Under the pieces are notes generated by a model, which saw nothing but the letters and a program-made list of their open reading frames with translations, made no database searches and had not been told where the DNA came from. From contig NZ_JAAQPI010000015.1 in the NCBI RefSeq assembly GCF_011683955.1, positions 1 through 64,000 on the forward strand: 64,000 bases of DNA. Reading direction: 5' to 3'. A program made the position numbers and the translations under genes. Origin of the DNA: Pseudomaricurvus alkylphenolicus (GTDB taxonomy: Bacteria > Pseudomonadota > Gammaproteobacteria > Pseudomonadales > Cellvibrionaceae). Shown in pieces: positions 9,501-62,765 of this stretch. Positions within the stretch are counted from its first letter, which is position 1. Each line of letters begins with the position of its first letter.

Positions 9501-10556
9501 ATGTTGAAAAACCTGTATAAAAAAATGATTGCTGCAGCGGCATTGGTTCTGGCAGCCAACAGTGCCACAGCCATTGAAGTCGATGAAAAGGCATCTATTA
9601 AGGATGCCACCACCAGTGTTCAGGGCATTCACCATATTGGCCTGTCGGTGCAACATCTGGATAAAACCCTGGCTTTCTATCTGGAGGCAACCGGATTTGA
9701 ATTGCTCAAGCGCGAAAAGGTATCGGCAAACCGCAGCGCCGATACGTTGTTCGGGGGCAATAATCTGGCATACGAACGCGCAGTGATCAAAGCCCCCAAT
9801 ATGATGTTCGAACTGATCGAGTTTGAGCACAATCAGAATCTCCCGGCACGCAAGATGCCGGTCCAGGGACCGGGCATGACACACACTTGCTTTCAGTCAC
9901 CCGCTGAGGACCCCGGTTTTGATAAATTTGTCAGTGCTGGTCTCGAAGTGCTTTCCAGAGGATCCTCTCCGGTAGATCTGGGCGGCTACGGCGTGACCTA
10001 TGCCTATGGATACGACCCCGAAGGCAATATGATCGAAATGGAACAACTGAATGACCAGCTGCTGAAACAGTCAGGCTATGATATTTCCTGGCGCAATACC
10101 GGGCTCGATATGTGGATGTCTCAGGTTGCACTGGTGACCCACGACATTGAACGTCTGATGTCGTTTTACCAGATGGTTATGGGATTCCAACCCTATCGCA
10201 GGGGTGAATACAAAGACAAACCCAAATTCGACGAAGTGGCTGACGTCGATAACATGCATGTTAAAGCCGGTTGGTTTCGCATGGAGGCCGGCCCCAAGGT
10301 CATGGAGTTCTGGCAATACCTAAACCCCAAAACGCCGGAGTTTACCAGTGAGCGTACCGCCACTTCTTTGGGATATTCCTTCTCGCTGGAGGTCAGTGAC
10401 ATCCAACAGGAATACAAGCGACTTAAGGCCGAAGGGGTTGCGTTCTTCAGTCAGCCGGTACTGTTGGATGGCGTCTGGCAGGTCTATGCCAAAGATCCGG
10501 ACAACAATATATTTGCCCTGCGTCAGCTGACCCAAAATGTCGCTGCACAACCCTAA
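9501..10556 (+). CDS. Exported tandem VOC (glyoxalase/extradiol dioxygenase fold) protein
   Basis: A 351-residue protein with a Sec signal peptide (AAAALVLAANSATA). Two VOC modules follow (about 41-182 and 200-340). The first keeps a possible 2-His-1-Glu metal site: His45 in IHHIGLSV, His128 in GMTHTCF and Glu179 in NMIEME. In the second, the corresponding positions are Gln, Ser and Ala/Leu, so it is probably structural. VOC enzymes are normally cytosolic, so export is unusual. An AGGAG ribosome site precedes the ATG at 9501. The gene lies between a quinohemoprotein dehydrogenase and a VOC lipoprotein, so a periplasmic dioxygenase, isomerase or lyase acting after alcohol oxidation is plausible. 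The reaction is unknown. Confidence 0.8.
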   Translation: MLKNLYKKMIAAAALVLAANSATAIEVDEKASIKDATTSVQGIHHIGLSVQHLDKTLAFYLEATGFELLKREKVSANRSADTLFGGNNLAYERAVIKAPNMMFELIEFEHNQNLPARKMPVQGPGMTHTCFQSPAEDPGFDKFVSAGLEVLSRGSSPVDLGGYGVTYAYGYDPEGNMIEMEQLNDQLLKQSGYDISWRNTGLDMWMSQVALVTHDIERLMSFYQMVMGFQPYRRGEYKDKPKFDEVADVDNMHVKAGWFRMEAGPKVMEFWQYLNPKTPEFTSERTATSLGYSFSLEVSDIQQEYKRLKAEGVAFFSQPVLLDGVWQVYAKDPDNNIFALRQLTQNVAAQP

Positions 10557-47979: not shown

Positions 47980-48150
47980 ATATCCACCTCTTTTCGATCT
48001 CTTGTCTGAACGTTTCTTGTGTTGGGCACCGTAGGGGCAGTCTCGGACCCTTTTTTATATGGCGGCTGAGTATACACCAAAGGTCAAACAGGTGTTTAAG
48101 TATTATGACGGAGAGAAGTCACACTTTAGGGGGAGGACAGGAAGATTAGG

Positions 48151-48265
48151 GCACCAGCCCAGACACACCGCGGTGTCAGCGGCGACCAGGGGTTCCGTTT
48201 TGAAGCATCAATAAACGCCAAAGTTAGACCCATAGGACCCGGTCAAGGGAAACCAAATGGGTCTA
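48151..48265. repeat. Partial copy of the structured element's 5' part plus separate hairpin
   Basis: 48151-48212 repeats, with three or four changes, the first 63 bp of the complete element at 48277-48339 (including the 12-bp palindrome ACACCGCGGTGT and the first outer arm). The rest differs. Instead of the internal hairpin there is a perfect 9-bp inverted repeat, TAGACCCAT (48226-48234) with ATGGGTCTA (48257-48265). It looks like a decayed or alternative member of the family. Confidence 0.6.
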
Positions 48266-48276
48266 TAGAAAATTAA

Positions 48277-48470
48277 GGCACCACCCCAGACACACCGCGG
48301 TGTCAGCGGCGACCGGGGGTTCCGTTTTCGAAGCATCAAAGAGGGCGCCGAAGGAGCAAAAAAGACAAGCGCTTTTTGCTTGGCTTTTTTGTGAGAGAGG
48401 GCAGCCGGGACGGCCGCCCGACAGCTTCGAAAACGGAACCCCCGGTCGACGCTTGAGGCACCAAACCTGC
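48277..48470 (+). repeat. Structured intergenic element, copy 1
   Basis: A perfect 24-bp inverted repeat (48311-48334 with 48424-48447) encloses ~90 bp. Inside is a hairpin at 48358-48390: AAAAAAG, A, CAAGC, a 7-nt GCTTTTT loop, GCTTG, G, CTTTTTT. A GC-rich second hairpin follows (GGGCAGCC...CGGCCGCCC, 48400-48420). After the outer stem comes TTGAGGCACC. The same plan recurs at 58770 and 62604 with different stem sequences. It lies in the 511-bp gap between the thiolase and CoA-transferase genes. No transposase or known RNA family is recognised. Confidence 0.7.
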
Positions 48471-48490
48471 CGCCTCCTGTACCACTGAAA

Positions 48491-49684
48491 TCAGGCAACA
48501 ACCCCATCAGCCCGCAACCGCGACAGCTCCTCGGAGGAGAGACCGAGCACGCGCTCAAACACATCCGCATTATGACTACCCACATCCCCACCCGGCCAGC
48601 GGGTTTTCCCGGGAGTTCCCGTCAACTTAGGCAAAATTGCCGGAATATCAAGCGGCTTCCCATCTATTTCCACCCGCTCAAACATCCCCCTTGCCTGGAA
48701 ATGCGGATCACTGAACATATCCTCAACACTATAAATCGGCCCGGCAGGCACCCGATGCTCCTCCATGATTGCCAACACCTCTGCCAAATCGTGCTGCATA
48801 CACCACTGAGCCAGCACCTCATCAATCTCCTGCTCATGCGCCACCCGCCCGGCGTTATTCGCCAGACGCGGATCCGTGCTCAAATCCGCACGCCCCACCG
48901 CCACCATCAAACGCTGGAAAATCGAATCACCGTTACCGCCAATCACCGCATACTTACCCCCCTTACAGCGGTAAGTATTGGTTGGCACAATCCCCGTCAC
49001 CGTCGTGCCGGACGCCTCGCGAACCACACCGGCCCCCGAAAACTCCGGCACCACCGCCTCCATCAAATTGAACATCGCCTCATACAGCGCCACATCCACC
49101 ACCTGACCGCGTGTCTGCCCCTTCTCCCGGGCAAACAGCGCCATCACAATGCCCAACACCGCATGGATACCCGCAATCGTGTCTCCGATACTCAGATTGG
49201 GCCGCACCGGGGCCTCACCGGGAAAACCGTTCACATATCGAAAACCGCTCATCCCCTCACAGACTGACGCAAACCCCGGCTTCTTCGCATAAGGCCCATC
49301 CTGCCCGTAACCCGAAATACGGGCAAACACCAAATCAGGGTTAGTCGCCTTCAAAGCCTCCGGCCCCAACCCCCATTTTTCCATCACACCGGGACGAAAA
49401 TTCTCCACCACCACATCAGCGCCATCAATCAACTGACGCACCAATGCCTGGCCCCGCTCCTGCTTCAGATCAATCGTCACCGATTTCTTATTGCGCCCAA
49501 GGCTCCGGTACCAAAGCGACGTGCCATTCTCCACCACCCGCCAGCCACGAATAGGGTCTCCCCCCTGGGGCGGCTCAACCTTGATCACCTCCGCGCCGAA
49601 GTACGCCAACATTGCACCGGCGAAAGGGCCGGCCAACAACTGGCCAACCTCAATAACCCGCACACCTTCCAGCGGCAAACTCAT
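48491..49684 (-). CDS. CoA-transferase family III (CaiB/BaiF type)
   Basis: A 397-residue CoA-transferase. The N-terminal LEGVRVIEVGQLLAGPFAGAMLAYFGAEVIKVE is the family start. The catalytic Asp that forms the acyl anhydride is D168 in LSIGDTIAG. These enzymes move CoA between carboxylic acids such as oxalate, carnitine, steroid side-chain or aromatic acids. The start overlaps the stop of the quinone oxidoreductase gene by four bases (ATGA), so the two are coupled. The substrate is not evident. Confidence 0.92.
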   Translation of the reverse strand: MSLPLEGVRVIEVGQLLAGPFAGAMLAYFGAEVIKVEPPQGGDPIRGWRVVENGTSLWYRSLGRNKKSVTIDLKQERGQALVRQLIDGADVVVENFRPGVMEKWGLGPEALKATNPDLVFARISGYGQDGPYAKKPGFASVCEGMSGFRYVNGFPGEAPVRPNLSIGDTIAGIHAVLGIVMALFAREKGQTRGQVVDVALYEAMFNLMEAVVPEFSGAGVVREASGTTVTGIVPTNTYRCKGGKYAVIGGNGDSIFQRLMVAVGRADLSTDPRLANNAGRVAHEQEIDEVLAQWCMQHDLAEVLAIMEEHRVPAGPIYSVEDMFSDPHFQARGMFERVEIDGKPLDIPAILPKLTGTPGKTRWPGGDVGSHNADVFERVLGLSSEELSRLRADGVVA

Positions 49685-50679
49685 GATTCCTGCTCCTGCC
49701 CCTGAATATTCAGCACAATCTTGCCAATCAAATCATGACTCTCCATCAAACGGTGGGCAGACTCCGCATCCGCCATGGGGAACTCCGCCGCCATCTTGGG
49801 CCGAATGGTGCCGTCACTGATCAACGGCCAAACCTTCTCCTGCAGACTGCTGGCAATCGCCGCCTTCTGTTCCTTGCTTTGAGGGCGCAGAGTCGAGCCC
49901 GTCAACGTCAGCCTTTTGAGCATAATTGGCATAAAATTGAGCTTCGCCTCGGCTCCGCGCAAAAAAGCAATATTTACAATCCGCCCCTCAATGGCCGCCG
50001 CTTTAATATTGCGCTCAATATAATCACCGCCCACCATATCGAGGATGACATTGGCGCCCTGCCCATCGGTCAGCTCCGCCACCTTCTCAACGAAATCATC
50101 CTGCGAATAATTAATCGCCGCGCTGGCTCCCAGCGCCAGACAAGCCGCGCACTTGTCCTCAGAGCTGGCCGTCACAATCACCCGGGAGCCTAAAGCAGTG
50201 GCCAACTGAATCGCCGTGGTACCAATGCCACTGGCCCCACCATGAATCAGCAGAGTCTCTCCTGGCTTGAGCCCCGCTCTGTCGAACACATTGGTCCAAA
50301 CCGTAAAAAACGTCTCCGGTAACGCCGCCGCCTGATCCAGACCGAGCCCCTCGGGTACCGGCAAACACTGACTGACCGGCGTGCAAACCTGTTGAGCATA
50401 TCCGCCCCCATTAGTCAGCGCACACACCCGATCACCCACGGCAAAACCACTGACACCGGCACCCACGGCTCTGACCGTACCCGACACCTCAAGTCCCAGA
50501 ATCGGAGAGGCGCCCGGAGGCGGAGGATAAAAGCCCTGCCGCTGAACCACATCCGGTCGATTCACGCCGGCAAAAGCCACGTCGATCAAGACCTCATCAG
50601 AAGCTGGCTGCGGAGCATCCATATTATCCAGCATCAATACCGAGGCATCCCCCGGCTCACGCATCGCGATGTAGCGCAT
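49681..50679 (-). CDS. NAD(P)H quinone oxidoreductase (zinc-less MDR family)
   Basis: A 332-residue medium-chain reductase. It has VLIDVAFAGVNRPDVVQRQGFYPPPPGASPILGLEVSG at the N-terminus (residues ~30-67), LIHGGASGIGTTAIQLA as the NADPH-binding loop and GARVI-like strand (GSRVIVTASSEDKCAA). The structural zinc cysteines are missing, as in PIG3/QOR-type quinone oxidoreductases. It reduces quinones or enones with NADPH. It is first in a two-gene operon with the CoA-transferase. Confidence 0.9.
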   Translation of the reverse strand: MRYIAMREPGDASVLMLDNMDAPQPASDEVLIDVAFAGVNRPDVVQRQGFYPPPPGASPILGLEVSGTVRAVGAGVSGFAVGDRVCALTNGGGYAQQVCTPVSQCLPVPEGLGLDQAAALPETFFTVWTNVFDRAGLKPGETLLIHGGASGIGTTAIQLATALGSRVIVTASSEDKCAACLALGASAAINYSQDDFVEKVAELTDGQGANVILDMVGGDYIERNIKAAAIEGRIVNIAFLRGAEAKLNFMPIMLKRLTLTGSTLRPQSKEQKAAIASSLQEKVWPLISDGTIRPKMAAEFPMADAESAHRLMESHDLIGKIVLNIQGQEQES

Positions 50680-50760
50680 ATCCTGTTCCTTTTCGTTGTT
50701 GTCGTGGTGGGGAACTGTGGCCCGTGTCTTTGTGCCCCGAAGTTGTGGTGACCAGCGTCT

Positions 50761-51396
50761 CTAAGGAGCCAGACGCTCGATACGCCAATCGTCACCATCG
50801 CGGGTGTATTGAAAACGGTCATGAAGCCGGTTGGCGCCGCCCTGCCAGAACTCGACACTGCTGGGCACCACTCGAAAACCGCCCCAGAAATCCGGCAGCG
50901 GAATCTGGCCCTGCTTGAATTTCTCCTTCATCGCCTGGAATTGCTGCATTAGCAGCTGGCGCGAAGACACGGGCCGGCTTTGAGCAGATGCCCAAGCCGC
51001 CAGCTGACTTTCCGCCGGGCGGGAGCTGAAATACTTAAGAGACTCCGCCGCACTGACCTTCTCGGCTCGGCCACAGATTTTGACCTGACGCTCAATGGGG
51101 TGCCAGGGAAAGTGCAGACTCACCAGTGGATTACCTTCGATATCCCGGGCCTTTTTACTTTCGTAGTTGGTGTAGAAAACGAACCCGCGCTGGTCCACTT
51201 GCTTTAGAAGAACGATGCGCTGGCTGGGCTGGCCGCCGGCATCCACCGTGGCCACTGTCACCGCCGTGGGATCGGGGATCTCTGCTTCGATCGCTTGTTT
51301 CAACCAGGCTTCAAATTGATCAATGGGATTTTCCAGCAACTCTTCGCGCTTCAACCCACCAATCAGGTATTCTCGCCGGAAGGTGTCCAGTTTCAT
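50761..51396 (-). CDS. pdxH: Pyridoxamine 5'-phosphate oxidase
   Basis: A 211-residue FMN enzyme that oxidises pyridoxine or pyridoxamine 5'-phosphate to PLP. It has [29 protein letters not shown] (residues ~7-35), [21 protein letters not shown], the FMN site [16 protein letters not shown], and the C-terminal [10 protein letters not shown]...W.IERLAP ending that is diagnostic. The ATG at 51396 is preferred; a TTG two codons upstream is possible. It is a housekeeping gene, unrelated in function to its neighbours. Confidence 0.96.
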
Positions 51397-51499
51397 GTTC
51401 AACCCTTACGTCAGCATTGTAATAATCTGGCGGCCATTGTATCCCTTGTGCCCCTCTCCGCATAATAGCCTTTATATGAGCAAACAACAGGAATCCTAA

Positions 51500-52144
51500 A
51501 TGCCCTCAAACACCGCTGACCGCCCCCTCGTATCCGGCGTTATTTTGGCCGGAGGACAGGCCACCCGTATGAACGGTGAAGCCAAAGGGGATCTGGAAAT
51601 ACAGGGTCAACGCCTGTTGGATCGGGTAGTTGATCGAGCCGGCAGGCAAGTGGATGGCCTGGTGTTAAGCTGCAATGACCCCCTTGCTTACCCTCAATGC
51701 GAACTGCCCCGACTACCGGACAGCCTGCCTGGCTACCTGGGCCCTCTGGCAGGAATACTGGCGGCCATGGAGTGGCTGCAACAATACCACCCTCGCTGCG
51801 AGTGGCTGGCAAGCTTTGCGGTGGACACTCCGTTTTTTCCGGAAGATTTGGTGATGCGCCTGATGGCAGGAGCGGTGGAGAGCGGAAAAGACAGAGAAAT
51901 CATCTGCCCGTTGAGCGCTGACGGCTGGCGTCAACCCACCTTTTGCCTTTGGCACCGGCGACAGGCCGCTGAACTCAGGCACGCCCTGTTGGAAGAAAAC
52001 TGCTATAAAGTCGGTGCCTGGCTGAAACGGCGCCAAACGGCGGAACATTCATTTGATCGAAAAACCGACAATCCTAACGCCTTCTTCAACATCAATCGCC
52101 CAGAAGACTTACAAATTGCACAAAATCTAGCCTTCCAGTTGTAA
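51500..52144 (+). CDS. mobA: Molybdenum cofactor guanylyltransferase
   Basis: A 214-residue nucleotidyltransferase. The N-terminal GVILAGGQATRMNGEAKGDLEI is the GTP-binding signature of MobA (LAGGxxxRMG..K), with the Lys kept. PLAGILAAMEWL and the metal-site Asp in SFAVDTPFFPEDL follow. It joins GMP to molybdopterin to make the bis-MGD cofactor needed by the formate dehydrogenase at 18-24 kb. It stands alone between pdxH and a diguanylate cyclase. Confidence 0.9.
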   Translation: MPSNTADRPLVSGVILAGGQATRMNGEAKGDLEIQGQRLLDRVVDRAGRQVDGLVLSCNDPLAYPQCELPRLPDSLPGYLGPLAGILAAMEWLQQYHPRCEWLASFAVDTPFFPEDLVMRLMAGAVESGKDREIICPLSADGWRQPTFCLWHRRQAAELRHALLEENCYKVGAWLKRRQTAEHSFDRKTDNPNAFFNINRPEDLQIAQNLAFQL

Positions 52145-52320
52145 TATCCGGCGGTTGGTTATAATTATTCGAATCAAAGCAGGAGTTTTTTTATTATTCC
52201 TTCTGCACAAATATCATCAAACTCTTGGCTTGCCAGCCGATAAAGATTCAGCATCAACGTAAACTTGTTATAAACTCAACCACAAGCTTTAAACGTTTAG
52301 AATAAACCCGAACCAAAGAC

Positions 52321-53097
52321 GTGCCTACAGTGCCAGCGGATAGTAGTGTGAGTTTGGAAAATGGAGTGGATCGGCCAGAGACGGTCGAGGCATCGCCACA
52401 GGCGGCCCCCGCCTGCCCTGTGGGAGAGAATCGCTGCCAGGTCATTGACGAGGTCGTGGCGCTGCGCCGGGAAGTCGCCGACCTGACCGAACAGGTACAC
52501 ACCGATACTCTCACCGGCCTCAACAACTACCGTCATTTCTCCAAGGCTCTGGACTATGAAATGGAGCGCACCCAGCGCACCGGCCAGACTACCGCACTCA
52601 TCATGGTTGACCTGGACTATTTTAAAAAGGTCAACGATACCTGGGGGCACGAAATCGGCAATCAGGCGTTAATTCAAACAGCCGGGCTCCTAAAGCAAGC
52701 CGTACGCAAATTGGATATCCCCTGCCGTTATGGCGGTGAGGAATTTGTGGTAATCCTTCCGTCTACCGATCTGCTCACCAGTTCGCAGGTCGCCGAACGC
52801 CTGCGCCACCTGATCGAAAGCACCCCGCTGGCGGTTAAAGAGGGAGTCTGGATCGACCTGACTGCGAGCATGGGGGTTGATGTCTACGCTGCGACCCACG
52901 ACGAAAACCAGGAAGAATTTATCCAACGGGTAGACACCCTGCTTTACCAGGCCAAGAACAACGGCCGCAATCAGGTCTGTACCGGCGAACGCCGGGATAT
53001 GCAACCCACCACTACCGTCAGCAATGACGAAAAAGACGCGCTGTTTGGGTTGTTTGGTGATTATGGGGATGACGAAGAAGCCTACAGCGAAGACTGA
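52321..53097 (+). CDS. Diguanylate cyclase (GGDEF domain)
   Basis: A soluble protein of about 258 residues with a short N-terminal helix leading to a GGDEF domain. DTLTGLNNYRHFSKAL, DLDYFKKVNDTWGHEIGNQAL and the active-site GGEEF are all present. The inhibitory site RKLD lies at the expected distance before GGEEF, so product inhibition is expected. There is no sensor domain beyond ~50 N-terminal residues. The start is uncertain: GTG at 52321 or one of the next GTG codons. The C-terminal acidic tail (EAYSED) is unusual but short. Confidence 0.93.
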   Translation: MPTVPADSSVSLENGVDRPETVEASPQAAPACPVGENRCQVIDEVVALRREVADLTEQVHTDTLTGLNNYRHFSKALDYEMERTQRTGQTTALIMVDLDYFKKVNDTWGHEIGNQALIQTAGLLKQAVRKLDIPCRYGGEEFVVILPSTDLLTSSQVAERLRHLIESTPLAVKEGVWIDLTASMGVDVYAATHDENQEEFIQRVDTLLYQAKNNGRNQVCTGERRDMQPTTTVSNDEKDALFGLFGDYGDDEEAYSED

Positions 53098-53150
53098 GGC
53101 AACGTCGTCATGCCATCACCATCCCCTAAAACCAGTATGGTATGTACCCT

Positions 53151-53198
53151 GTAGCAGCCCGCTGAGGGCGACTGGTCGCGCTCGGAGCGCGCTGCTAC
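53151..53198. repeat. REP-like palindromic pair
   Basis: GTAGCAGCCCGCTGAGGGCG and its inverted partner, ending GAGCGCGCTGCTAC, face each other across a few bases. The units are like the GTAGGAGC-type REP sequences of pseudomonads and relatives. Similar units occur at 62415-62530. The gap of ~125 bp between two gene ends (the cyclase and the amidohydrolase, convergent) is a usual REP location. Confidence 0.75.
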
Positions 53199-53221
53199 GG
53201 TGAGTGCCATTCCACTCAACA

Positions 53222-54946
53222 TCAGCGCTCAAACACAGTCCGACCATCCACCACGGTTTTTAATACCCGGGTCTTGTGAATCGCCTGCACATCAATCTCA
53301 AACAGATTCTGATCCAGTACGATAAAATCCGCTAATTTACCAGCTTCCAATGAACCAATCAGATGCTCCCGCCCCTGGGCATAAGCGCCACCCATGGTAA
53401 GCGCGTGGATCGCCGTCTGCAGAGAAACCCGCTGCGCCGCGCCGGGCCCCGTTACCTCGCTGCCGCCCGGCAGCTGTCGCGAGATCATGGTCTCAATAGC
53501 GGGAAAGGGATTGGGCGAATCCACCACCGGCCAGTCGGACCCCACCGACACCTTCACCCCCATATCGGTAAAGGTTTTAAACGGAAATACCCACTCCAAT
53601 CGGCGCTCACCGAGCTCGTGCCGCAACATGTCCCAACTGGGGGTCGGATACCAGAAGTAGGGAGAAAACTCCGCAATCACATCCAGCGTCTTAAACCGTT
53701 CGCGATCATCCGGATGTACAAACACGGTATGAGCCACACTGTGCCGCTGCTTGGAGCCACGGGCTCGCACTGCTTCCATGGCATCCAATACTGTGCGAAT
53801 GGTCTGTGAACCCACGGCATGAGCCTTTACCGTTAACCCCCTGGCATCGTATTCGAGCAGCTTTTTGGCAAATTCCTCCGGATCATTGCGCCAAGGGCCA
53901 CCGTGTTGGTCCGTCGTGCCTTCATAAGGCTCCACCATAATCAACGTTTGACCACCGGCGGAACCATCGAGCACAAACTTTACGCCATCGGCTCTGAGCC
54001 AGTTACCCACCCGATAATCTTCGTGATTATCGATGATGCTTTGAGCCCCCTTGCGCCATTGCTCATCCACCCATTCCAGCGGATCAGACACATACACTTT
54101 GATCCTGACGGGCAGCTCATTAGCCAAGGCCATTTCCCGATAGGCCTTAACCATATAGTCCCGACCCCAGGAATCACTGATGGAGGTAATTCCAAATTCA
54201 CTCAGTCTTTTCAGAACCGGCTTCAATCCCGACTCAATCAACTCCCGCCCCCGCGGCTGCCCATCCAAGGCCCGCTCATAAGCCATATTCGCCGCCGTCT
54301 CGCGCAGTACGCCTGTTGGCTGACCGTCACTGTCTTTAACGATAACGCCGCCAGCGGGATTGGGCGTAGACGCCGTAATACCCAGCTGCGTTAAACCCGC
54401 TTTGTTTAGCAGTACCGCATGGCCTCCAACGTCCCACATCATCAGCGGGCGATCCGGCACCAACGCATCCAGCGTCGAGAAATGGGAGGGTGAATCGGTA
54501 CCGTCGATATTGTTTCCATTATCATTCAACCAATTGATCATGCCACCCATCAACCAGTCTTCACCGGGGTGTGACTTGGCATAATCAACGATCCCCTGCT
54601 GCTGTTCCTGCCAGGACATCTCCGAAGGCTGCAGATTAATGTTCACCAGATTTTCACTGGCCATATCCGGATGAACGTGCTCCTCGACAAGCCCTGGTAA
54701 AACCAGTTTGTCCGTCAAGTCCTCGATTCGCGTTTGTTTGCCACGATAGGCTTTGACCATACTGGCATCGCCAACGGCGACAATTCGATTGCCCTTAATC
54801 GCCATGGCATTGGCCCAAGGCTGAGCCCTATTAACGGTGTAGATACGAGCGTTGGTGTAGATGACATCCGCCGATTTGTTTTCCACAGCGAGAGCAGCAC
54901 TGCAGCTTACAGCGAAGGTGAGTGTAAGCAATATTCGTTTGAGCAT
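53222..54946 (-). CDS. Exported amidohydrolase (YtcJ-like)
   Basis: A 574-residue protein with a Sec signal peptide (ILLTLTFAVSCSAALA). It is an amidohydrolase of the YtcJ/exoenzyme-regulatory type: DVIYTNARIYTVNRAQPWANAMAI near the N-terminus (residues ~27-50), the metal motif EEHVHPD (H90, H92), and conserved C-terminal SVGSDWPVVDSPNPF and LADFIVLD. It probably hydrolyses an amide or ester in the periplasm. It is the third gene of an operon with a TonB receptor and an APH-like kinase; its ATG overlaps the kinase stop by one base (TAATG). Confidence 0.88.
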   Translation of the reverse strand: MLKRILLTLTFAVSCSAALAVENKSADVIYTNARIYTVNRAQPWANAMAIKGNRIVAVGDASMVKAYRGKQTRIEDLTDKLVLPGLVEEHVHPDMASENLVNINLQPSEMSWQEQQQGIVDYAKSHPGEDWLMGGMINWLNDNGNNIDGTDSPSHFSTLDALVPDRPLMMWDVGGHAVLLNKAGLTQLGITASTPNPAGGVIVKDSDGQPTGVLRETAANMAYERALDGQPRGRELIESGLKPVLKRLSEFGITSISDSWGRDYMVKAYREMALANELPVRIKVYVSDPLEWVDEQWRKGAQSIIDNHEDYRVGNWLRADGVKFVLDGSAGGQTLIMVEPYEGTTDQHGGPWRNDPEEFAKKLLEYDARGLTVKAHAVGSQTIRTVLDAMEAVRARGSKQRHSVAHTVFVHPDDRERFKTLDVIAEFSPYFWYPTPSWDMLRHELGERRLEWVFPFKTFTDMGVKVSVGSDWPVVDSPNPFPAIETMISRQLPGGSEVTGPGAAQRVSLQTAIHALTMGGAYAQGREHLIGSLEAGKLADFIVLDQNLFEIDVQAIHKTRVLKTVVDGRTVFER

Positions 54947-55968
54947 TATACAGCCTCCAAATAATGTTCAACCTGTGCCATCACTGATTCAGTTAACATC
55001 GGCGTCAGTGCCTGAGCCGTTTCCGTCTCCCGCCGGGTGTGCGCCCAGCCAAGATAAACAAGTCCGCGCAATAACAAGAACAGCGGCAACTTCATCTCAT
55101 GCTCAGCAGGCAATGGTCGAAAACTCCGGTAACCCGTCAAAAAGCTGTCCAAAACCGCTTCAAAGCTTTGCTCTCCCTGTAGAAAAAACAAAGACGTCGC
55201 AATATCAAAAAGATGCCAGCCAGAACCGGCATCATCGAAGTCAATCAGCTGTATACCATCTTGGGTGCGCAACAGATTCTCGGGTAAGAAATCACAATGG
55301 ATCAAACCGTAACGATCCTCCTGCTGCCCAAACTCCAGTAATTCTGCACGGGCTTTTTCCCTCGCGCGATGCACCAGCGCCCGCTGATCCTCGCTTAACG
55401 CCTGCAACTCCCAATAACGCCCCCAGAGCGGATCGTCACCGACAATGCCATCAATATCCCAGGCGTGACGAACAAAACCCTCCGGCCGCAGCCAGCGTTG
55501 TGCATGATTATGGAGCTTCGCCATCAATTCACCGGCAACCCGATAATTGGCCACAACGGCTGCCGGGTCACCATTAGCCCCCTCCTCCACCGACCCCAAC
55601 GGCTCCCCGTTAATCCACTCAAGCACATCCACCTGGCGGGGCTCAGGCACCGACGAGCCGCTCACCACCTTAAACATCTCACCGTCAACGGCAGGCACAA
55701 CGGCCGGGGTTTGAATACCGTCACGATTCAACGCCTCCATCCACTGCAACTCCGAACGCAGCGCTTTGTCACTGTGGTAACCCGCGCGATGAACACGCAG
55801 CGCAAAACGCTGCGCTCCATCGGTCACGGCAAACACCGCATTCTCCCGATACTTAACCAGACGCACAACGGCGTCGGCACCAAAACCCCAAAGGTGAAGA
55901 TTTTCTTCCACCAAACGCTGAATACACGCAACCTGCGCCTGTGGCGACAACTCGTAAAAACCACTCAT
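54946..55968 (-). CDS. APH-family small-molecule kinase
   Basis: A 340-residue phosphotransferase with the aminoglycoside/choline/homoserine kinase fold, similar in overall plan to SrkA. The N-terminal nucleotide lobe has YRENAVFAVTDGAQRFALRVHRAG. The catalytic loop is GLIHCDFLPENLL (Asp near residue 228; His-Cys-Asp in place of the usual His-Gly-Asp) and the metal motif is LIDFDDAG. The substrate is not known. It follows the TonB receptor by 4 bp and overlaps the amidohydrolase start by one base, so all three are co-translated. The start at 55968 is preferred; a frame extending to 56088 would overlap the receptor. Confidence 0.85.
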   Translation of the reverse strand: MSGFYELSPQAQVACIQRLVEENLHLWGFGADAVVRLVKYRENAVFAVTDGAQRFALRVHRAGYHSDKALRSELQWMEALNRDGIQTPAVVPAVDGEMFKVVSGSSVPEPRQVDVLEWINGEPLGSVEEGANGDPAAVVANYRVAGELMAKLHNHAQRWLRPEGFVRHAWDIDGIVGDDPLWGRYWELQALSEDQRALVHRAREKARAELLEFGQQEDRYGLIHCDFLPENLLRTQDGIQLIDFDDAGSGWHLFDIATSLFFLQGEQSFEAVLDSFLTGYRSFRPLPAEHEMKLPLFLLLRGLVYLGWAHTRRETETAQALTPMLTESVMAQVEHYLEAV

Positions 55969-55972
55969 CGAC

Positions 55973-58453
55973 TTACTCGCCCCAGTTGTACTTAAAGGAA
56001 ATTCCGAATGTCCGCTCACGTCCCAGCAAATGCACCACGCTGTCGTTAGTGGCCGAAGCACCGCTGTAGTACTCCTCATCCGTCGCATTCTTGACCCAGC
56101 CGGTCAACTGCCAACGGTCGTTCATATCGGCAATACCCGCCCGCAGATTCATTACCGTGTAGGCGTCCACATCAAAGGCAGCAATATCTCCAACCACTGC
56201 ATTGAACGCATCGCTATAGGCAATATCGCCACCGACGAATACCCTTAACTCATCACTCAATTCCAACTCATGGTGAACCATCAAGTTATGCTGAAACTCC
56301 GGCGTATTTTGCAAGCGCTGGCCAGACACATCAATCGGCGTATTATTGGTTGCCTGCAACGACTGCCCAAACAAAATCGTGGCAAACTCATCGTACTCCG
56401 TATCCAGATATGCAGACGTCAAACGGATCAACGTACTGTCGGTCGCAAACCAATTCACCTCCAACTCGGCACCACTCACCGTTGACTCCGGCGCATTCAC
56501 AATCTTGGTGAGAGAACCGAATACCGGATCAATAATCGACGCCGACACCTGCTTATCCTGATAATCGTAAGAATAAACCGCTCCATTTACCTGCACTGCA
56601 CCGTCGAACAAGGTCGACTTAAAGCCCATCTCGTAAGATGTCACCTCCTCCGGATCATAAGACTCCAGCGACTCCCACAATGCCGCCGCCGGCGCACCAA
56701 AACCGCCAGACTTGTAACCGGTACTGATATTGGCGTAAATCAACTGATCCTCGGCGGGACGAAACTCCAGCCCCAACTTGCCAGACACATTCTCGCTATC
56801 AATAGTCTTGTTAAACGGGGCGGACGGCTCCGCGATTGACGGCTGAGTCATGCAGTCCCCTTGAACCGCCCCGGAACCCAAACCCGCCACATTAAAAAAG
56901 TTGGCCAGCGTGCCGTCGACATCATGGGTACAGGAATCGATAATCTCCCGCTCATCCTCGGTATAACGCAGCCCCAGATTCACCGACAGTGCGTCAGACA
57001 CCTCATAATCCAGATGCACGAACACACCAACCGTTGTGCTCTCCTGCTCATAAGTGGTGGAAAACAAATCGAAACCCGCACCAATCACCTGCACATCCCG
57101 CTCATCCACCACGCCATCGCCATTCAGATCCGCCGTCGGTAAACCAAACACCGGTGCCAGCGCCGGAAAATCATCCGGAGAAATAAACAACTGCGGCGTC
57201 GACAAACTGCCACTGCCCGTGGAATTTTCATCCACCGTATCCCCTGCGAAATACACACCCGCAATCCACTGCAAGGCACCATCACCCATCGACGTCAAGC
57301 GCAACTCCTGACTCCAGGCCTCGATCTCCGTATCGTTAAAACTGTCCCAATTGTTCACCGCCACACCATCCCAGGCGTTTGCCTCAGTACGACGATACTC
57401 ATTCCAGGAGGTCAGAGACGTTAGGGTCACAGCATCCAAATCCCAATCAACCCGGACACTCAACAACAACCCATCGTTATCGCGATCGAACTCACCATCG
57501 GAATTAAAACCACCGAAGCGATTCCCGGCAGCATCCCAACTGGCCGCATTCGGATCATCAGAATCAGGCAAACCCGCACCCTCAAACCGGTGCTGCAAAT
57601 AATCCACCACACTCACATCAGCATCCGCACTGATCGTCATAAAACTCGCATGCTGTGGAACAATATTGTCACTCTGGTCGCGATGATAATCCGCCTTAAA
57701 CTGCACACCGAGACTGGGCGTCGGCTCCCAACTCGCCTGCAGACGCAACGCCACTTTATCCTGCTCCCCATGCTCCTGACCCTCACCACCTACCGCGGCA
57801 TTCTCCTGCCAGTCGCCACCCTTCTCAGTGAAAAACGACACCCGCGCCGCCAACTCATTGCTCAACACACGATTCACATGCCCCTGCGTCGACCACTTTT
57901 GATCACTGTCCAACCCCACCTTCACGCTGGCATTGTTCTCATCCAATGACGCCTTATTGTGAATAAAATTCACCGTACCGCCCGTCGTATTCTGCCCATA
58001 CAACGTCCCCTGCGGCCCCTTCAACACCTCCACACGCTCCACATCATACTGCGGCACCCGAGTCATAATCGGATAAGGCAAGGCCACCTCATCAATATTA
58101 ATCCCCACCGTAGAACTACTGTTCGAGTTATAGTCATCAAACCCGATGCCCCGAATCGTATAAATCGGCACCCCCTGCCCCGAAGACGTCAAAGTCGCGC
58201 CCGGCGTAAACGCCATCATCTCCGTTGCCTCCTGCACCCCAAGCGCCTCCAACTGCTCATCCGAAAACGCACTAATCGACACACCGATATCATTCGCACT
58301 CTCCGCCCTCTTTTGCGCGGTAACGATCACCTCCTCAAGCTCAAACAACTGCGCACTCGCCCACTGAGGCGCCGCCCCCAACGACACCCCAAACGCCGCA
58401 ACCGCACTGGGCAACAACCCTCTACGAAACCAACCACACCGACTCTCAAACAT
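55973..58453 (-). CDS. TonB-dependent receptor
   Basis: An 826-residue outer-membrane receptor. A signal peptide ends at ASAQ. LEEVIVTAQKRAESANDIGVSISAFS is the TonB box and start of the plug, followed by IYTIRGIGFDDYNSNSSSTVGINIDEVALPY and VERVEVLKGPQGTLYGQNTTGGTVNFI. The long barrel ends FGISFKYNWGE with an internal acidic loop (DLNGDGVVDERDVQVIG) that looks like a calcium-binding dockerin/EF-hand loop. The ATG at 58453 has GGAGAG five bases upstream. It is first in the kinase-amidohydrolase operon. An inverted repeat (58509-58522) lies in its promoter region. Confidence 0.92.
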   Translation of the reverse strand: MFESRCGWFRRGLLPSAVAAFGVSLGAAPQWASAQLFELEEVIVTAQKRAESANDIGVSISAFSDEQLEALGVQEATEMMAFTPGATLTSSGQGVPIYTIRGIGFDDYNSNSSSTVGINIDEVALPYPIMTRVPQYDVERVEVLKGPQGTLYGQNTTGGTVNFIHNKASLDENNASVKVGLDSDQKWSTQGHVNRVLSNELAARVSFFTEKGGDWQENAAVGGEGQEHGEQDKVALRLQASWEPTPSLGVQFKADYHRDQSDNIVPQHASFMTISADADVSVVDYLQHRFEGAGLPDSDDPNAASWDAAGNRFGGFNSDGEFDRDNDGLLLSVRVDWDLDAVTLTSLTSWNEYRRTEANAWDGVAVNNWDSFNDTEIEAWSQELRLTSMGDGALQWIAGVYFAGDTVDENSTGSGSLSTPQLFISPDDFPALAPVFGLPTADLNGDGVVDERDVQVIGAGFDLFSTTYEQESTTVGVFVHLDYEVSDALSVNLGLRYTEDEREIIDSCTHDVDGTLANFFNVAGLGSGAVQGDCMTQPSIAEPSAPFNKTIDSENVSGKLGLEFRPAEDQLIYANISTGYKSGGFGAPAAALWESLESYDPEEVTSYEMGFKSTLFDGAVQVNGAVYSYDYQDKQVSASIIDPVFGSLTKIVNAPESTVSGAELEVNWFATDSTLIRLTSAYLDTEYDEFATILFGQSLQATNNTPIDVSGQRLQNTPEFQHNLMVHHELELSDELRVFVGGDIAYSDAFNAVVGDIAAFDVDAYTVMNLRAGIADMNDRWQLTGWVKNATDEEYYSGASATNDSVVHLLGRERTFGISFKYNWGE

Positions 58454-58508
58454 AACCACTCTCCTCTCTCACTTATCAGTATCGCCCAGAATTCGGAGCA
58501 CCATTAAC

Positions 58509-58522
58509 TCGACTTGAGTCGA
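58509..58522. promoter_or_regulatory. Inverted repeat upstream of the TonB receptor operon
   Basis: TCGACTTGAGTCGA has two 6-bp arms around a TG centre. A related inverted CTCGG/CCGAG motif lies ~27 bp further out (near 58541-58550). It is 56-70 bp before the receptor start and looks like an operator; no regulator gene is adjacent. Confidence 0.5.
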
Positions 58523-58769
58523 TTAATAAAACCAGACTATAGCCGAGTTTAAGGATCGTCAAGCAAAATCCGACCAAACCCGAGAAAAGATCAGTTTTTA
58601 GTCAAAAAAGAAATATCAAGGCACTCAGACAGAACCACTCCGAAGAACGATCCGAGAAACACAGGCCCAGAAAAGACCTACAGAAGAGAACACAGGGAGA
58701 GGCCCCGGACAACCAACCCCCACCATAAAGTGGAGCAGCAAGACCATGCATACCACAGAGTAAAAGGCG

Positions 58770-58930
58770 GCTGGGGGGTTCGTTTTGGCGCATTAAAGAG
58801 CAGCGCTGACCGAGTAAATGAGACCGGCGTTTTTTGCCGGGCTCATTTGGGAGGGAAGGCACCCCGGAGGGGCGCGCGACAGCGCCAAAACGGACCCTCC
58901 AGCTGCCAATTGAGGCACCCACCCCCCAGC
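58770..58930 (+). repeat. Structured intergenic element, copy 2
   Basis: A 22-bp inverted repeat (58770-58791 with 58882-58903) has two mismatches, both of which would be G-U wobble pairs in RNA. The internal hairpin at 58816-58848 is AAATGAG, A, CCGGC, loop GTTTTTT, GCCGG, G, CTCATTT. A GC-rich hairpin (CCCC-GGA-GGGG, 58862-58872) follows and TTGAGGCACC comes after the outer stem. The plan matches copies 1 and 3, with different stem bases. It lies between the TonB receptor and the HExxH gene. Confidence 0.75.
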
Positions 58931-58978
58931 CTGCCCCCCGAAAACCCCAGAGCGCGCCCAAACAACTAAAAACAACCA

Positions 58979-59965
58979 TTATTCGACTTTATTTTGGTTA
59001 TAACCGCCAAAACCACTAAGAGAAGAACCCAAACCCCGAGTCAACTCCCGCCTCAACCTAACCCCAGAACCGCCACCATCAACCAACCGAACCCGACCAC
59101 CAACCACGGAAACCCCAAGCCGCCCCAACAAAGGCCCCATATCCGGCTGCGCAAACAACTCCCGATAGCGCAAATACAAAGGCACAAACACCGCCTCCCC
59201 CACCACCCCATCAAACGCCGACATCAACCCCAACCCATCTCGAATATAACGACGCTCCAAACAACACCCAACAAACCCCTGCACCACCCGATCCAACGAC
59301 CAGCCGCCACCAACACGCTCCCGCAACAACACGTCCGCCTCAAGAAAAAACGCCGTCCCGCTCCAATACACCCGCATAAAACTCCCCGTCTCCCGCATAC
59401 GGGGCGACAACGCCTGCAGACTCAAATGCCCATAACCATCGTCCCGCTCACCACGCCCAAACCCCTCATACAACTTCTGCCAGGCCCGCCGCTCAGAAAT
59501 CACCCCCGCCCGCGCCTGCAACACATTCTGGTAATAGGTCGCCAACCCCTCCGACAGCCAGATATCCTCCTCACCGGGGTACGGGATAAACAAGTGCACC
59601 AACTCATGCACCGCTGTCCAGTCTGCTGTGAAACTCTCCAACGGATACTGTGGGTTAACATAAAAGCGGACGCCCTGGAGATCTCGGCGGATCACTTGAC
59701 CAAATGGCACCGGCCCACCGCTGCCTGTAGAGCGCTGGACTACAATGCGAATAGGGTTTCGCGGAAGCTCTCCGTATAGGCCGGCTGCAGTTTCACCTGC
59801 GTGTTGCAGCCAGAGCTTTAACTTATCCTGCTCAGAAATAGAAAAGCTCCCGCGCCAGCTTAAGTTGAATTCGCTGCCTGCAACCAGAATTGAACCGGAC
59901 GCCACTGCCAGACTCGCATGCAGCAGCCAAATAAGAGAACATTGAAAAACGAAAAATCGAGACAT
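58979..59965 (-). CDS. Exported HExxH protein, gluzincin-like metallopeptidase
   Basis: A 328-residue protein with a signal peptide (SLIWLLHASLAVASG). Residues ~118-142 carry AVHELVHLFIPYPGEEDIWLSEGLATYY: HELVH is a zinc motif (H120, E121, H124) and the third ligand is likely E139 in SEGLATYY, as in M1-like gluzincins, although the spacing (14 residues) is shorter than in M1. The C-terminal part is Gly/Arg-rich and has no recognisable domain. The coding strand is strongly G+T-rich. It may be a peptidase of unknown target; its neighbours give no hint. Confidence 0.75.
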   Translation of the reverse strand: MSRFFVFQCSLIWLLHASLAVASGSILVAGSEFNLSWRGSFSISEQDKLKLWLQHAGETAAGLYGELPRNPIRIVVQRSTGSGGPVPFGQVIRRDLQGVRFYVNPQYPLESFTADWTAVHELVHLFIPYPGEEDIWLSEGLATYYQNVLQARAGVISERRAWQKLYEGFGRGERDDGYGHLSLQALSPRMRETGSFMRVYWSGTAFFLEADVLLRERVGGGWSLDRVVQGFVGCCLERRYIRDGLGLMSAFDGVVGEAVFVPLYLRYRELFAQPDMGPLLGRLGVSVVGGRVRLVDGGGSGVRLRRELTRGLGSSLSGFGGYNQNKVE

Positions 59966-60170
59966 ACCCGCAGACTAGCAGAAGAACGGCGGGTAGAGCG
60001 TTTAAAGATGTAAAGATCAACGAACTTGTAAAGGTACAGCCGCCAGCAAAATCGGGGGCACAGATTGCCGAAATTGCCGCTGTCACCCCTCAAACCGCAC
60101 AATGTGCCTCTGCCCAAAGCCCAACTGAACCCCTAATATCCTCCCAAACAGTCAGGGGTGCGGGGCGCCA

Positions 60171-61871
60171 GTGTATATTTATAGTCAATTGGACCACCAA
60201 TTGGTCCGGGAGCGGGTAGCGCAGTTCAATAACCAGACCCAGCGCTATCTGGAAGGTAAACTAACCGAGGATCAGTTCCTGCCACTGCGGTTGCAAAACG
60301 GCCTGTACGTACAACGGCTGGCGCCGATGCTGCGTATCGCTGTGCCCTACGGCATGTTATCGTCCGCCCAGCTGCGCAAGTTGGCAAAGATTACCCGTGA
60401 GTTCGATAAAGGTTATTGCCACATCACCACTCGACAGAACATTCAGCTGAACTGGCCACAAATTGAAGACGTACCCGAGATACTGCGTGAATTATCCGAA
60501 GTGGAAATGCACTCCATACAAACCAGCGGTAATTGTATCCGCAACGTCACCTCGGACCAGTTTGCGGGTATCGCTCAAGACGAAATTGAAGACCCACGCC
60601 CCTATTGTGAGCTGGTGCGCCAATGGTCAACCCTACACCCCGAGTTTGCCTTCCTGCCGAGAAAGTTCAAGATAGCGATTAACGGTGCTCACCATGATCG
60701 GGCCGCAACGCGTTTTCACGATATAGGTTTGCAGATCAAACAAGACCCGGTAACCGGCACCACCGGGTTTGAAGTATTCGTCGGTGGTGGACTGGGGCGA
60801 ACCCCTGTCATCAGCCAGTCAATCCGGAATTTTTTGCCGGCAACCCGCTTGCTGTCTTACCTGTGTTCGATTTTGCGCGTGTACAACCGCTTCGGGCGCC
60901 GGGACAATAAATACAAAGCTCGTATCAAGATCCTGGTCAAAGAAACCGGCTTGGACGCCTTTCGTCAAATGGTCGAAGACGAATGGCTGACGATTCGCGA
61001 CAACTACGAAGACCTGACCACCGAAGAAATCAATCGGGTAAAGACCTACTTCAGTAAGCCCGCATACGCCAGGCTTGACCCGCTTGTGGCACAAAGCCAA
61101 CTGCAGCAAGAACGACAGGCATCGCCTGAATTCAGCCGCTGGCTGGATGCCAATGTGAGTGCCCACAAGATCAGTGGCTACGCTGCTGTCACCTTGTCAT
61201 TGAAGCCCACTGGGGTTGCACCCGGAGATATGACCGACAAACAACTGGAGGCGGTGGCCGATTTGGCAGAGCAGTTTTCCTTCGGTGAAGTCCGTACCAC
61301 GCACCAACAGAATCTGGTGCTGGCTGATGTTCGCAAGAGCGATTTGGCAGCACTCTGGCGCGCATTGGTGACTTATGGTTTTGCCACACCAAACGTAAAT
61401 ACTCTGACCGATATTACCTGCTGTCCCGGCGGGGATTTTTGCGCCTTGGCCAACGCGAAGTCCATTCCCGTGGCAGAGTCTATTCAACGTGAGTTTGATG
61501 CGATGGACTACGTCTATGATCTGGGTGAGCTGAAATTGAATATTTCCGGCTGCATGAACGCCTGCGCTCATCACCATATCGGTCATATTGGTATTTTGGG
61601 TGTCGACAAAAAGGGTGAAGAATTCTACCAGGTAACACTTGGCGGTCATGGAGGCAACCATGGTCGGGCACCCGCCATTGGTAAGGTGTTGGGGCCAGCC
61701 TTTTCGGCGCGGGAAATTCCCGGTGTAATTCGCCAGCTGTTGGATTGCTTTGTGGAGTGGCGACATGAGGATGAATTGTTTGTCGATGTTGTGGATCGAT
61801 TGGGTATTCAGGCGTTCAAAGGCATGGTCTACGATAAGTCCGCCAAGTCTCTGCAAAAGGAGACGGCGTGA
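60171..61871 (+). CDS. cysI: Sulfite (nitrite/sulfite) reductase, siroheme hemoprotein
   Basis: A 566-residue siroheme/4Fe-4S reductase. Two ferredoxin-like half domains (RLAPMLRIAVPYGML, KGYCHITTRQNIQLNW) precede the cluster and siroheme cysteines: CPGGDFC (C418, C424) and SGCMNAC (C461, C465), followed by HHHIGHIG. This is the one-polypeptide assimilatory sulfite reductase type found beside DUF934 in many proteobacteria. It starts with a GTG at 60171. The DUF934 gene overlaps its stop by one base (TGATG). cysH, which usually follows, is not in the window. Confidence 0.9.
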   Translation: MYIYSQLDHQLVRERVAQFNNQTQRYLEGKLTEDQFLPLRLQNGLYVQRLAPMLRIAVPYGMLSSAQLRKLAKITREFDKGYCHITTRQNIQLNWPQIEDVPEILRELSEVEMHSIQTSGNCIRNVTSDQFAGIAQDEIEDPRPYCELVRQWSTLHPEFAFLPRKFKIAINGAHHDRAATRFHDIGLQIKQDPVTGTTGFEVFVGGGLGRTPVISQSIRNFLPATRLLSYLCSILRVYNRFGRRDNKYKARIKILVKETGLDAFRQMVEDEWLTIRDNYEDLTTEEINRVKTYFSKPAYARLDPLVAQSQLQQERQASPEFSRWLDANVSAHKISGYAAVTLSLKPTGVAPGDMTDKQLEAVADLAEQFSFGEVRTTHQQNLVLADVRKSDLAALWRALVTYGFATPNVNTLTDITCCPGGDFCALANAKSIPVAESIQREFDAMDYVYDLGELKLNISGCMNACAHHHIGHIGILGVDKKGEEFYQVTLGGHGGNHGRAPAIGKVLGPAFSAREIPGVIRQLLDCFVEWRHEDELFVDVVDRLGIQAFKGMVYDKSAKSLQKETA

Positions 61872-62335
61872 TGCAAAGGGTTATCAAAGACGGGAACGTC
61901 CAGTTGGATGACTGGATTCTGGTGGGCCAAGCCGGCAGTTCCATGAACCCTGCACAATTACCGGAAAAAACGATTCTGCCATTTGGATACATCCAAAAGA
62001 AAAGCGATCAGCTCCCGCGTCAACAGAATGTCCATGGTGTATTGCTTGATGGTTCCGACGACATTGAAGGCTGGGGAGAAATGCTCGTCCGATTTCCTTT
62101 ATTGGCTGTTTCATTTTCACACTTTACCGACGGTCGGGGATTCAGCCTCGCTGCGCAGTTGCGTGAAAAGTATGGGTTTAGTGGAGACCTCCGGGCAATG
62201 GGTAACTTTCTGCCTGATCAGATGAACTATCTGAGCCGATGTGGTTTTTCGTCGTTTCACATTCAAGACTCAGAACAGTTGGAAGATGCATTGAGTGGTC
62301 TTCGAGACTTTAATGTCGCGTACCAGGGCCTTTGA
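61871..62335 (+). CDS. DUF934 protein of the sulfite reductase operon
   Basis: A 154-residue protein of the DUF934 family, which is found next to cysI-type sulfite reductases. It has DDWILVG near the N-terminus, VRFPLLAVSFSHFTDGRGFSLAAQLREKYGFSGDLRAMGNFLPDQ (residues ~75-120) and CGFSSFHI at the end. The function is not established. It is translationally coupled to cysI (TGATG). Orphaned from cysH here, but the pairing is standard. Confidence 0.92.
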   Translation: MQRVIKDGNVQLDDWILVGQAGSSMNPAQLPEKTILPFGYIQKKSDQLPRQQNVHGVLLDGSDDIEGWGEMLVRFPLLAVSFSHFTDGRGFSLAAQLREKYGFSGDLRAMGNFLPDQMNYLSRCGFSSFHIQDSEQLEDALSGLRDFNVAYQGL

Positions 62336-62414
62336 AGTTATGGATTATCAGAAAGTTTTGTTCGCGGTTTGAGTCCAGGTTTTGGGGGCAATGTGTCATA
62401 ACCGGTAATTCATA

Positions 62415-62530
62415 GATGCGCTCTTCGAGCGCAATCGCCCTCAGAGCGGGCTCCTACAAGATACCCCAACTACCTCTGGCCACGACGAGATTCTCTGACC
62501 AACCGTAGCAGCGCGTTCCGAGCGCGACCG
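62415..62530. repeat. REP-like units flanking a short spacer
   Basis: 62415-62457 (reverse complement begins GTAGGAGCCCGCTCTGAGGGCG) and 62505-62530 (GTAGCAGCGCGTTCCGAGCGCG) are REP-like units in opposite orientation, 47 bp apart. They match the units at 53151-53198 closely. They lie just before structured element copy 3. Confidence 0.7.
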
Positions 62531-62603
62531 GTGTTCTCCAGAGTAACGGTTTAAAGCTGCGAAGTTCAGAACGATAAAGATCGTGTACCTCGGTCTAAAG
62601 GGT

Positions 62604-62765
62604 GGCTGGGTGTTCGTTGGAGGGGCATTTCAAGCGAACGCCGAAGGAGTCAATGAGACAAGCGTTTTTTGCTTGGCTCATTGGGGACTGAGGGAAGCCT
62701 GGAGGGCCGGTAGCGTGCCCCTCCAACGGACACCCAGCCGCCCGTTGTGGCACAAAATTACCAGC
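62604..62765 (+). repeat. Structured intergenic element, copy 3
   Basis: A 24-bp inverted repeat (62604-62627 with 62716-62739) has one T/G difference that would be a U-G wobble. The internal hairpin at 62651-62683 is CAATGAG, A, CAAGC, loop GTTTTTT, GCTTG, G, CTCATTG. A short GGGAAGCC...GGCC hairpin follows. After the outer stem comes TTGTGGCAC, a variant of the TTGAGGCACC in copies 1 and 2. It lies between the DUF934 gene and the VOC gene. Confidence 0.75.

Follow-up and report, generated by a model that had tools for sequence, protein, structure and literature searches.

The 64,000-nucleotide window analysed here (positions 1 to 64,000 of contig NZ_JAAQPI010000015.1, assembly GCF_011683955.1, of Pseudomaricurvus alkylphenolicus) carries three related palindromic elements in intergenic sequence, all on the + strand, whose limits according to a covariance model are 48308-48466, 58766-58923 and 62601-62758. 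They look like members of an undescribed family of small passenger elements, in which about 155 nt of DNA keep one fold despite differences in their letters. A sequence-only reading had placed three elements here and described a shared plan of outer arms, a 7-bp stem, an A.G mismatch, a 5-bp stem, a T-rich loop, a GC-rich hairpin and a TTGAGGCAC-like tail. Direct reading bears out the positions, and every part of the plan is found in all three copies. The further statement that all mismatches of the outer stems are G-U holds with one exception: read by eye, they are G.U wobbles apart from one G.A near the very foot of copy 1.

In copy 1, the outer stem P1 is formed by a 5' arm (48308-48334) and a 3' arm (48424-48450), both placed from the family alignment and its fold. 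They enclose a conserved core (48335-48424; alignment and pair counts) made up of a short helix P2 with tandem G.A modules and two hairpins. Direct reading and pair counts, together with the fold in the case of P3, define the P3 hairpin (48357-48391), with an 8-bp outer part, the A.G mismatch, a 5-bp inner part and the T-rich loop, and the P4 hairpin with its GGA triloop (48404-48414). Both middle pairs of P2 are mismatched in this copy by eye. The element ends in a conserved 3' tail with TTGAGGCACCAAAC (48451-48466), recognised by flank conservation, and many copies also have a motif related to TTGAGGCACCAAAC close to their left end; the same flank conservation reveals no conserved T-run after the tail. 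Copies 2 and 3 have the same layout, with the arms and tails placed by direct reading and the 46-copy alignment introduced below: in copy 2 the P1 arms lie at 58766-58791 and 58882-58907, the core at 58792-58882 and the tail at 58908-58923, and in copy 3 the arms lie at 62601-62626 and 62717-62742, the core at 62627-62717 and the tail at 62743-62758. A truncated left-end fragment (48150-48211), 95% identical to query positions 1-63 of copy 1, is found just upstream of copy 1.

The family had been taken to comprise three copies, a number that has to be given up: the genome holds dozens. A covariance model gives 62 full-length matches above 120 bits in 8.9 Mb, in addition to weaker, partial and opposite-strand matches, and blastn with copy 1 against its own genome gives 44 matches when self, partial and arm-only matches are counted. 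The model (R1) was built from an alignment of 46 copies of this genome (A1), in which copies are about 155-160 nt long and have a mean pairwise identity of 0.70 (range 0.54-0.95, with flanks of about 50 nt counted). The recurrence of the element and its covariation are far above chance. Copy 3 belongs to a subfamily (with C1:90976, C45:363155 and C16:79207, one of them near a contig end) whose members share stretches of mosaic intergenic DNA as long as 619 nt. These long flanks were rejected as part of the element, as their extent varies and no gene was recognised in them, and are assigned to neighbouring mosaic repeats. The genome itself is large compared with the 4.0-5.7 Mb of five genomes of the same genus.

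The fold is documented by two alignments. RNAalifold predicts 41 pairs on A1, 31 of which show at least one double compensatory change, and the paired cells comprise 1678 Watson-Crick, 150 G.U, 5 A.C and 39 other combinations. The excess of G.U over A.C points to the + strand as the folded strand; as a fold predicted on that strand favours G.U, the ratio supports the choice of strand and by itself is no proof. A second alignment (A5) contains 69 copies from 12 genomes, 25 of them from the window's genome (every second copy of the non-redundant 46, that is 23, plus window copies 1 and 2). Two anchor failures (C34:320239 of the window's genome and G059 L177), near-duplicates and, by hand, one copy each of loci L127, L144 and L154 were left out. 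In the core of A5, 92.8% of the paired cells are paired, 17 of 21 pairs show double changes and the covariation score is 0.444; the score falls to 0.139 in shuffled alignments, none of 500 shuffles matches the paired cells, the double changes or the score, and sliding the structure along the alignment yields scores of 0.03-0.11. Since related sequences can beat shuffles without any structure, the low scores after sliding and the variety of pair types are the weightier evidence. The two tandem G.A modules are near-invariant (69, 66, 66 and 63 of 69 rows), the A.G mismatch is kept in 68 rows, and the stem closing the GGA triloop stays paired through C-G, G-C, U-A, A-U and U-G combinations. P2 is less regular, with two of its four pairs weak and unpaired in 30 and 26 rows, respectively. 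A single-strand structure under selection rather than plain duplication, as the sequence-only reading had proposed, is thus supported by the covariation of 46 copies from one genome and 69 from 12, with the reservation that outer-stem pairing may be partly mutational.

The element matched no known family, in line with the earlier impression. At gathering scores, Rfam 15 returns only one tRNA in the window, and a permissive search of seven loci (E up to 5) lets one family overlap an element, at the level of chance: MIR1858 (E 4.1, 23.8 of 137 bits). The permissive search also places a TPP riboswitch near one copy (locus L002, 764-867). No description of the family was found in a literature search whose reach excluded subscription journals and preprints.

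The comparison with related genomes suggested by the sequence-only reading finds the family scattered. With strict filters, R1 matches three of 58 relatives, the window's genome included, and none of the five other genomes of its genus. A core-only model (R2), built with its alignment (A6) from 60 of the 69 A5 rows, matches 16 of 390 genomes of the order, from eight families, and two of 369 genomes drawn from the class, own genome counted in both cases. The strict filters make these counts lower bounds. The matches in genomes new to R2 concern the core only; G083 (E 2e-4) and G517 have a single match each, and the weakest single-match genomes could be chance. Named genomes scanned with a sequence pattern yielded 47 stretches, each under a gammaproteobacterial title: the sources are three Pseudoteredinibacter (Cellvibrionaceae), a Cellvibrionaceae metagenome-assembled genome (MAG), and MAGs of Pseudomonadales and other Gammaproteobacteria. 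R1 matches all nine genomes reached through these loci, as expected from their selection. The pattern had no match in viral contigs, copy 1 had no blastn match in plasmids and one copy of strain 208 had none in phages.

Orthologous loci and local arrangement point to mobility. Pseudoteredinibacter isoporae (P. isoporae below) is without elements at three locations where the flanking genes align with those of Pseudoteredinibacter strain 208, namely a three-element cluster and two other sites. In one case 463 nt of strain 208 stand against 3 nt in P. isoporae; the exact junction was not found in this comparison, and there is little conservation outside the element block. Strain 4-665-3Z carries three tandem copies where 208 has one copy and one with its interior deleted. 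Across nine genomes, 16 of 20 neighbours at most 600 nt apart are head-to-head, three are tandem and one is tail-to-tail, with just two head-to-head pairs among the 62 copies of the window's genome. In two genomes (G142 and G169), the unit that recurs is a whole inverted doublet, some 390 bp long, the matches shown having 82-95% identity (cut-off 82%), and a terminator-like hairpin lies just outside in eight of 15 aligned units by eye. Two side observations concern element neighbourhoods. In strain 208, a thioesterase-like gene and a gene for alkylmercury lyase (MerB) lie between two head-to-head elements (L079, 7991-9607); this block is absent from P. isoporae and lacks the MerB part in 4-665-3Z. 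A second repeat, which has hairpin loops of GGACGG type and is flanked by inverted repeats, adjoins two elements (L082, about 10094-10175, and L087, about 10141-10240) and has no Rfam match at gathering scores.

The copies of the window's genome show a strong polarity relative to GC skew. Of 65 matches, three of them below 120 bits, 61 lie on the C-rich strand, with negative skew of the element strand over at most 10 kb on each side (binomial 2e-14, assuming independent copies). Among the 62 full-length copies, which also underlie the contig counts, the polarity recurs in every gene context (sense 12/13, convergent 23/25, antisense 19/20, divergent 4/4), and 55 of 60 copies on contigs with at least two lie on the majority strand of their own contig. 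The leading strand is usually G-rich; by this rule the folded strand would be lagging-strand sequence. On contig C11, skew is negative in the 14 20-kb windows sampled up to 0.93 Mb and positive in five of six from 0.98 Mb, with two copies on the + strand before the switch and two on the - strand after it. This origin-type switch, a candidate origin by its skew, lies on another contig than the sole DnaA_C match (C23:573808), and the single copy on C23 is an exception to the polarity.

Among the options of the sequence-only reading (a mobile palindromic repeat, a small RNA or a transcription-level element), the mobile palindromic repeat fits best, given the patchy occurrence, the empty orthologous sites, the inverted doublets and the local arrays; an independent small RNA draws no support from the tail, after which no T-run is conserved. 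At a probability of about one half, the element would be a non-autonomous, REPIN-like mobile element that is recognised in the form of a folded single strand and whose insertion is coupled to replication. Mobility is suggested by the features just named and by copy number, recognition of a folded single strand by the covariation and the constant core, and coupling to replication by the polarity. The recognised form would be a single strand, either RNA or single-stranded DNA of the + strand, folded with P1 as a long clamp around a purine-rich junction helix with the two tandem G.A modules, the hairpin with the A.G mismatch and the GGA-triloop hairpin. A putative trans-acting factor would bind the conserved core, and as P1 would need only to pair, its letters could drift. 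Copies, whether singlets or inverted doublets, would enter intergenic space mostly beside gene 3' ends and preferentially in one orientation relative to the replication fork, and would then multiply locally.

Several observations weigh against this model. By eye, none of the genes beside the copies read was recognised as mobile, with only four neighbouring proteins run against Pfam; neighbours looked ordinary, and no gene common to the neighbourhoods was noticed. Y1 transposases (Y1_Tnp) occur in 15 of 17 genomes, including four of five without elements, and have no match in P. isoporae, which has three copies. The loci read around 30 of 35 Y1_Tnp matches (about 1.5 kb on each side) contain no element, nor do those read around five of six reverse transcriptase matches. 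No target-site duplication came to light. Strain 4-665-3Z has counterparts of 11 of the 12 sites of strain 208, so that movement must be slow there. The polarity is weaker elsewhere, at 40 of 55 copies from hand-picked loci of eight sets (one member per doublet) and one of three in P. isoporae, and the skew switch on C11 is not anchored by dnaA, as the only DnaA_C match is on C23. A retron or group II origin was rejected, as RVT_1 has no match in nine of 12 carriers searched; it occurs in four of 17 genomes, three of them carriers, the window's genome included.

Among known repeats, bcr1 of the Bacillus cereus group, in another phylum, is also dispersed and about as long, shows features of mobility and is predicted to fold; the likeness is one of general description, not of sequence comparison, and bcr1 is not known to have private outer stems, inverted doublets or a replication polarity. 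Integron attC sites end in RYYYAAC and GTTRRRY, and the P1 ends in A1 differ from these by inspection. REP, BIME and REPIN sequences with their RAYT transposases, as described in PMC3733652 and PMC3116915, resemble the element as non-autonomous palindromic intergenic repeats with a preference for gene ends, many inverted doublets and local tandem arrays. The element shares their inverted doublets (the 16 head-to-head neighbours) and their preference for convergent or codirectional genes, with just 6 of 81 copies between divergent ones. By contrast, the REP or REPIN unit described there is a hairpin of 20-60 nt with a GTAG or CGTC tag at its foot, whereas the element, at about 155 nt, has a branched fold with a conserved core and, by inspection of A1, mostly GGYGGC...GCCGCC at its foot. 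REP sequences in these accounts flank a RAYT gene, but no element lies in the Y1_Tnp loci read, so that a RAYT partner was rejected. The BRE of Betaproteobacteria is, according to PMC3110155, a repeated intergenic element that overlaps a small-RNA locus and varies in tandem number per site. It is shorter (about 90 bp, 69% GC) and of another class, the likeness being one of description, and is called ‘not co-orientated’ with the fork, which may mean that it has no fixed orientation. IS200/IS605 elements and their derived miniature elements are similar in the recognition of secondary structures on a single strand and in transposition coupled to replication, according to PMC6006769. They use the lagging-strand template; the folded strand of the element is the opposite one by the skew rule given above, the reverse of the IS200/IS605-type expectation if the folded strand were the substrate, and no element lies beside the Y1 genes read.

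An unlikely but serious alternative is that the copies work for the host as RNAs or mRNA-end elements, in processing, stability or termination or as decoys, each being kept by selection at its site, with dispersal secondary. Simple open reading frame calls for 81 copies are consistent with such a role at gene ends: 32 lie between convergent genes (stop/stop), 25 are antisense (start/stop) and 17 sense (stop/start) to codirectional genes, six lie between divergent genes (start/start) and one has no neighbour. The near-even orientation to codirectional genes (25 and 17) would be odd for a cis-acting element, however, and the absence of matches in the five other genomes of the genus also tells against the idea. 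The comparison of strains 208 and 4-665-3Z cuts both ways. At 11 sites, the element is closer than both 100-nt flanks in four and closer than the sole aligning flank in two more. Pooled identity, on the other hand, is 90.6% for elements, 78.1% for the 100 nt upstream and 90.1% for those downstream (84.4% and 92.9% further out), and three of the 11 paired elements are only 75-82% identical although their gene flanks match. Constraint between the two strains is thus mixed, and copies at single sites may have a host function.

The outer stem raises a separate question. P1 has about 26 bp, and its letters are mostly private to each copy yet paired. Among the 12 copies of strain 208, the two arms of a copy pair with each other at 23.5 of 26 positions on average (-43.4 kcal/mol), compared with 14.2 (-15.8 kcal/mol) for arms taken from different copies, and left arms are 35% identical from copy to copy. 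The trend recurs in three further genomes (G061, G062 and G063) and, at a left-arm identity of 0.51, most weakly in the window's genome. Arms are shared by some copies in G061, in G063 and in the window's genome, so that the best cross-pairings there equal the cognate ones in strength. A role of the arms as guides was rejected: left-arm 17-mers of copies outside the window's genome, sought in the collected loci only, fell on elements or their orthologues in those checked among the matches listed (at most 14 per element), with the exception of the G059_L176 arm against L138 and L181. Quasi-palindrome correction at replication forks rewrites one arm of an imperfect palindrome from the other, and with such a templated process covariation in P1 alone does not prove selection. 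That P1 pairing is mostly mutational is nevertheless rather improbable. Such an origin would suit divergent left arms that still pair so well around a core much of which is conserved, but the core covaries too, in short helices with conserved loops, and some orthologous stems retain G.U pairs or mismatches. A combined scheme, in which a folded RNA or its single-stranded DNA copy would be joined into the nascent lagging strand without a reverse transcriptase or transposase of its own, and forks would continually rewrite the stems to give each copy a private, well-paired clamp, is doubtful enough to count as speculation.

Very unlikely is a polar DNA site of chromosome replication or segregation comparable to KOPS, polar chromosomal signals with selected orientation: the skew and contig-strand biases would suit it, but the covarying 155-nt fold and the G.U excess speak for a single strand, there is no match in the rest of the genus, and inverted doublets bear both polarities.

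The element represents a structured family with no Rfam 15 match, heavy covariation and a strong GC-skew polarity, whose conserved core could serve as bait for a protein partner. It opens two questions to testing: the way in which non-autonomous palindromic repeats move, and whether selection or templated mutation at replication forks maintains long, well-paired stems.

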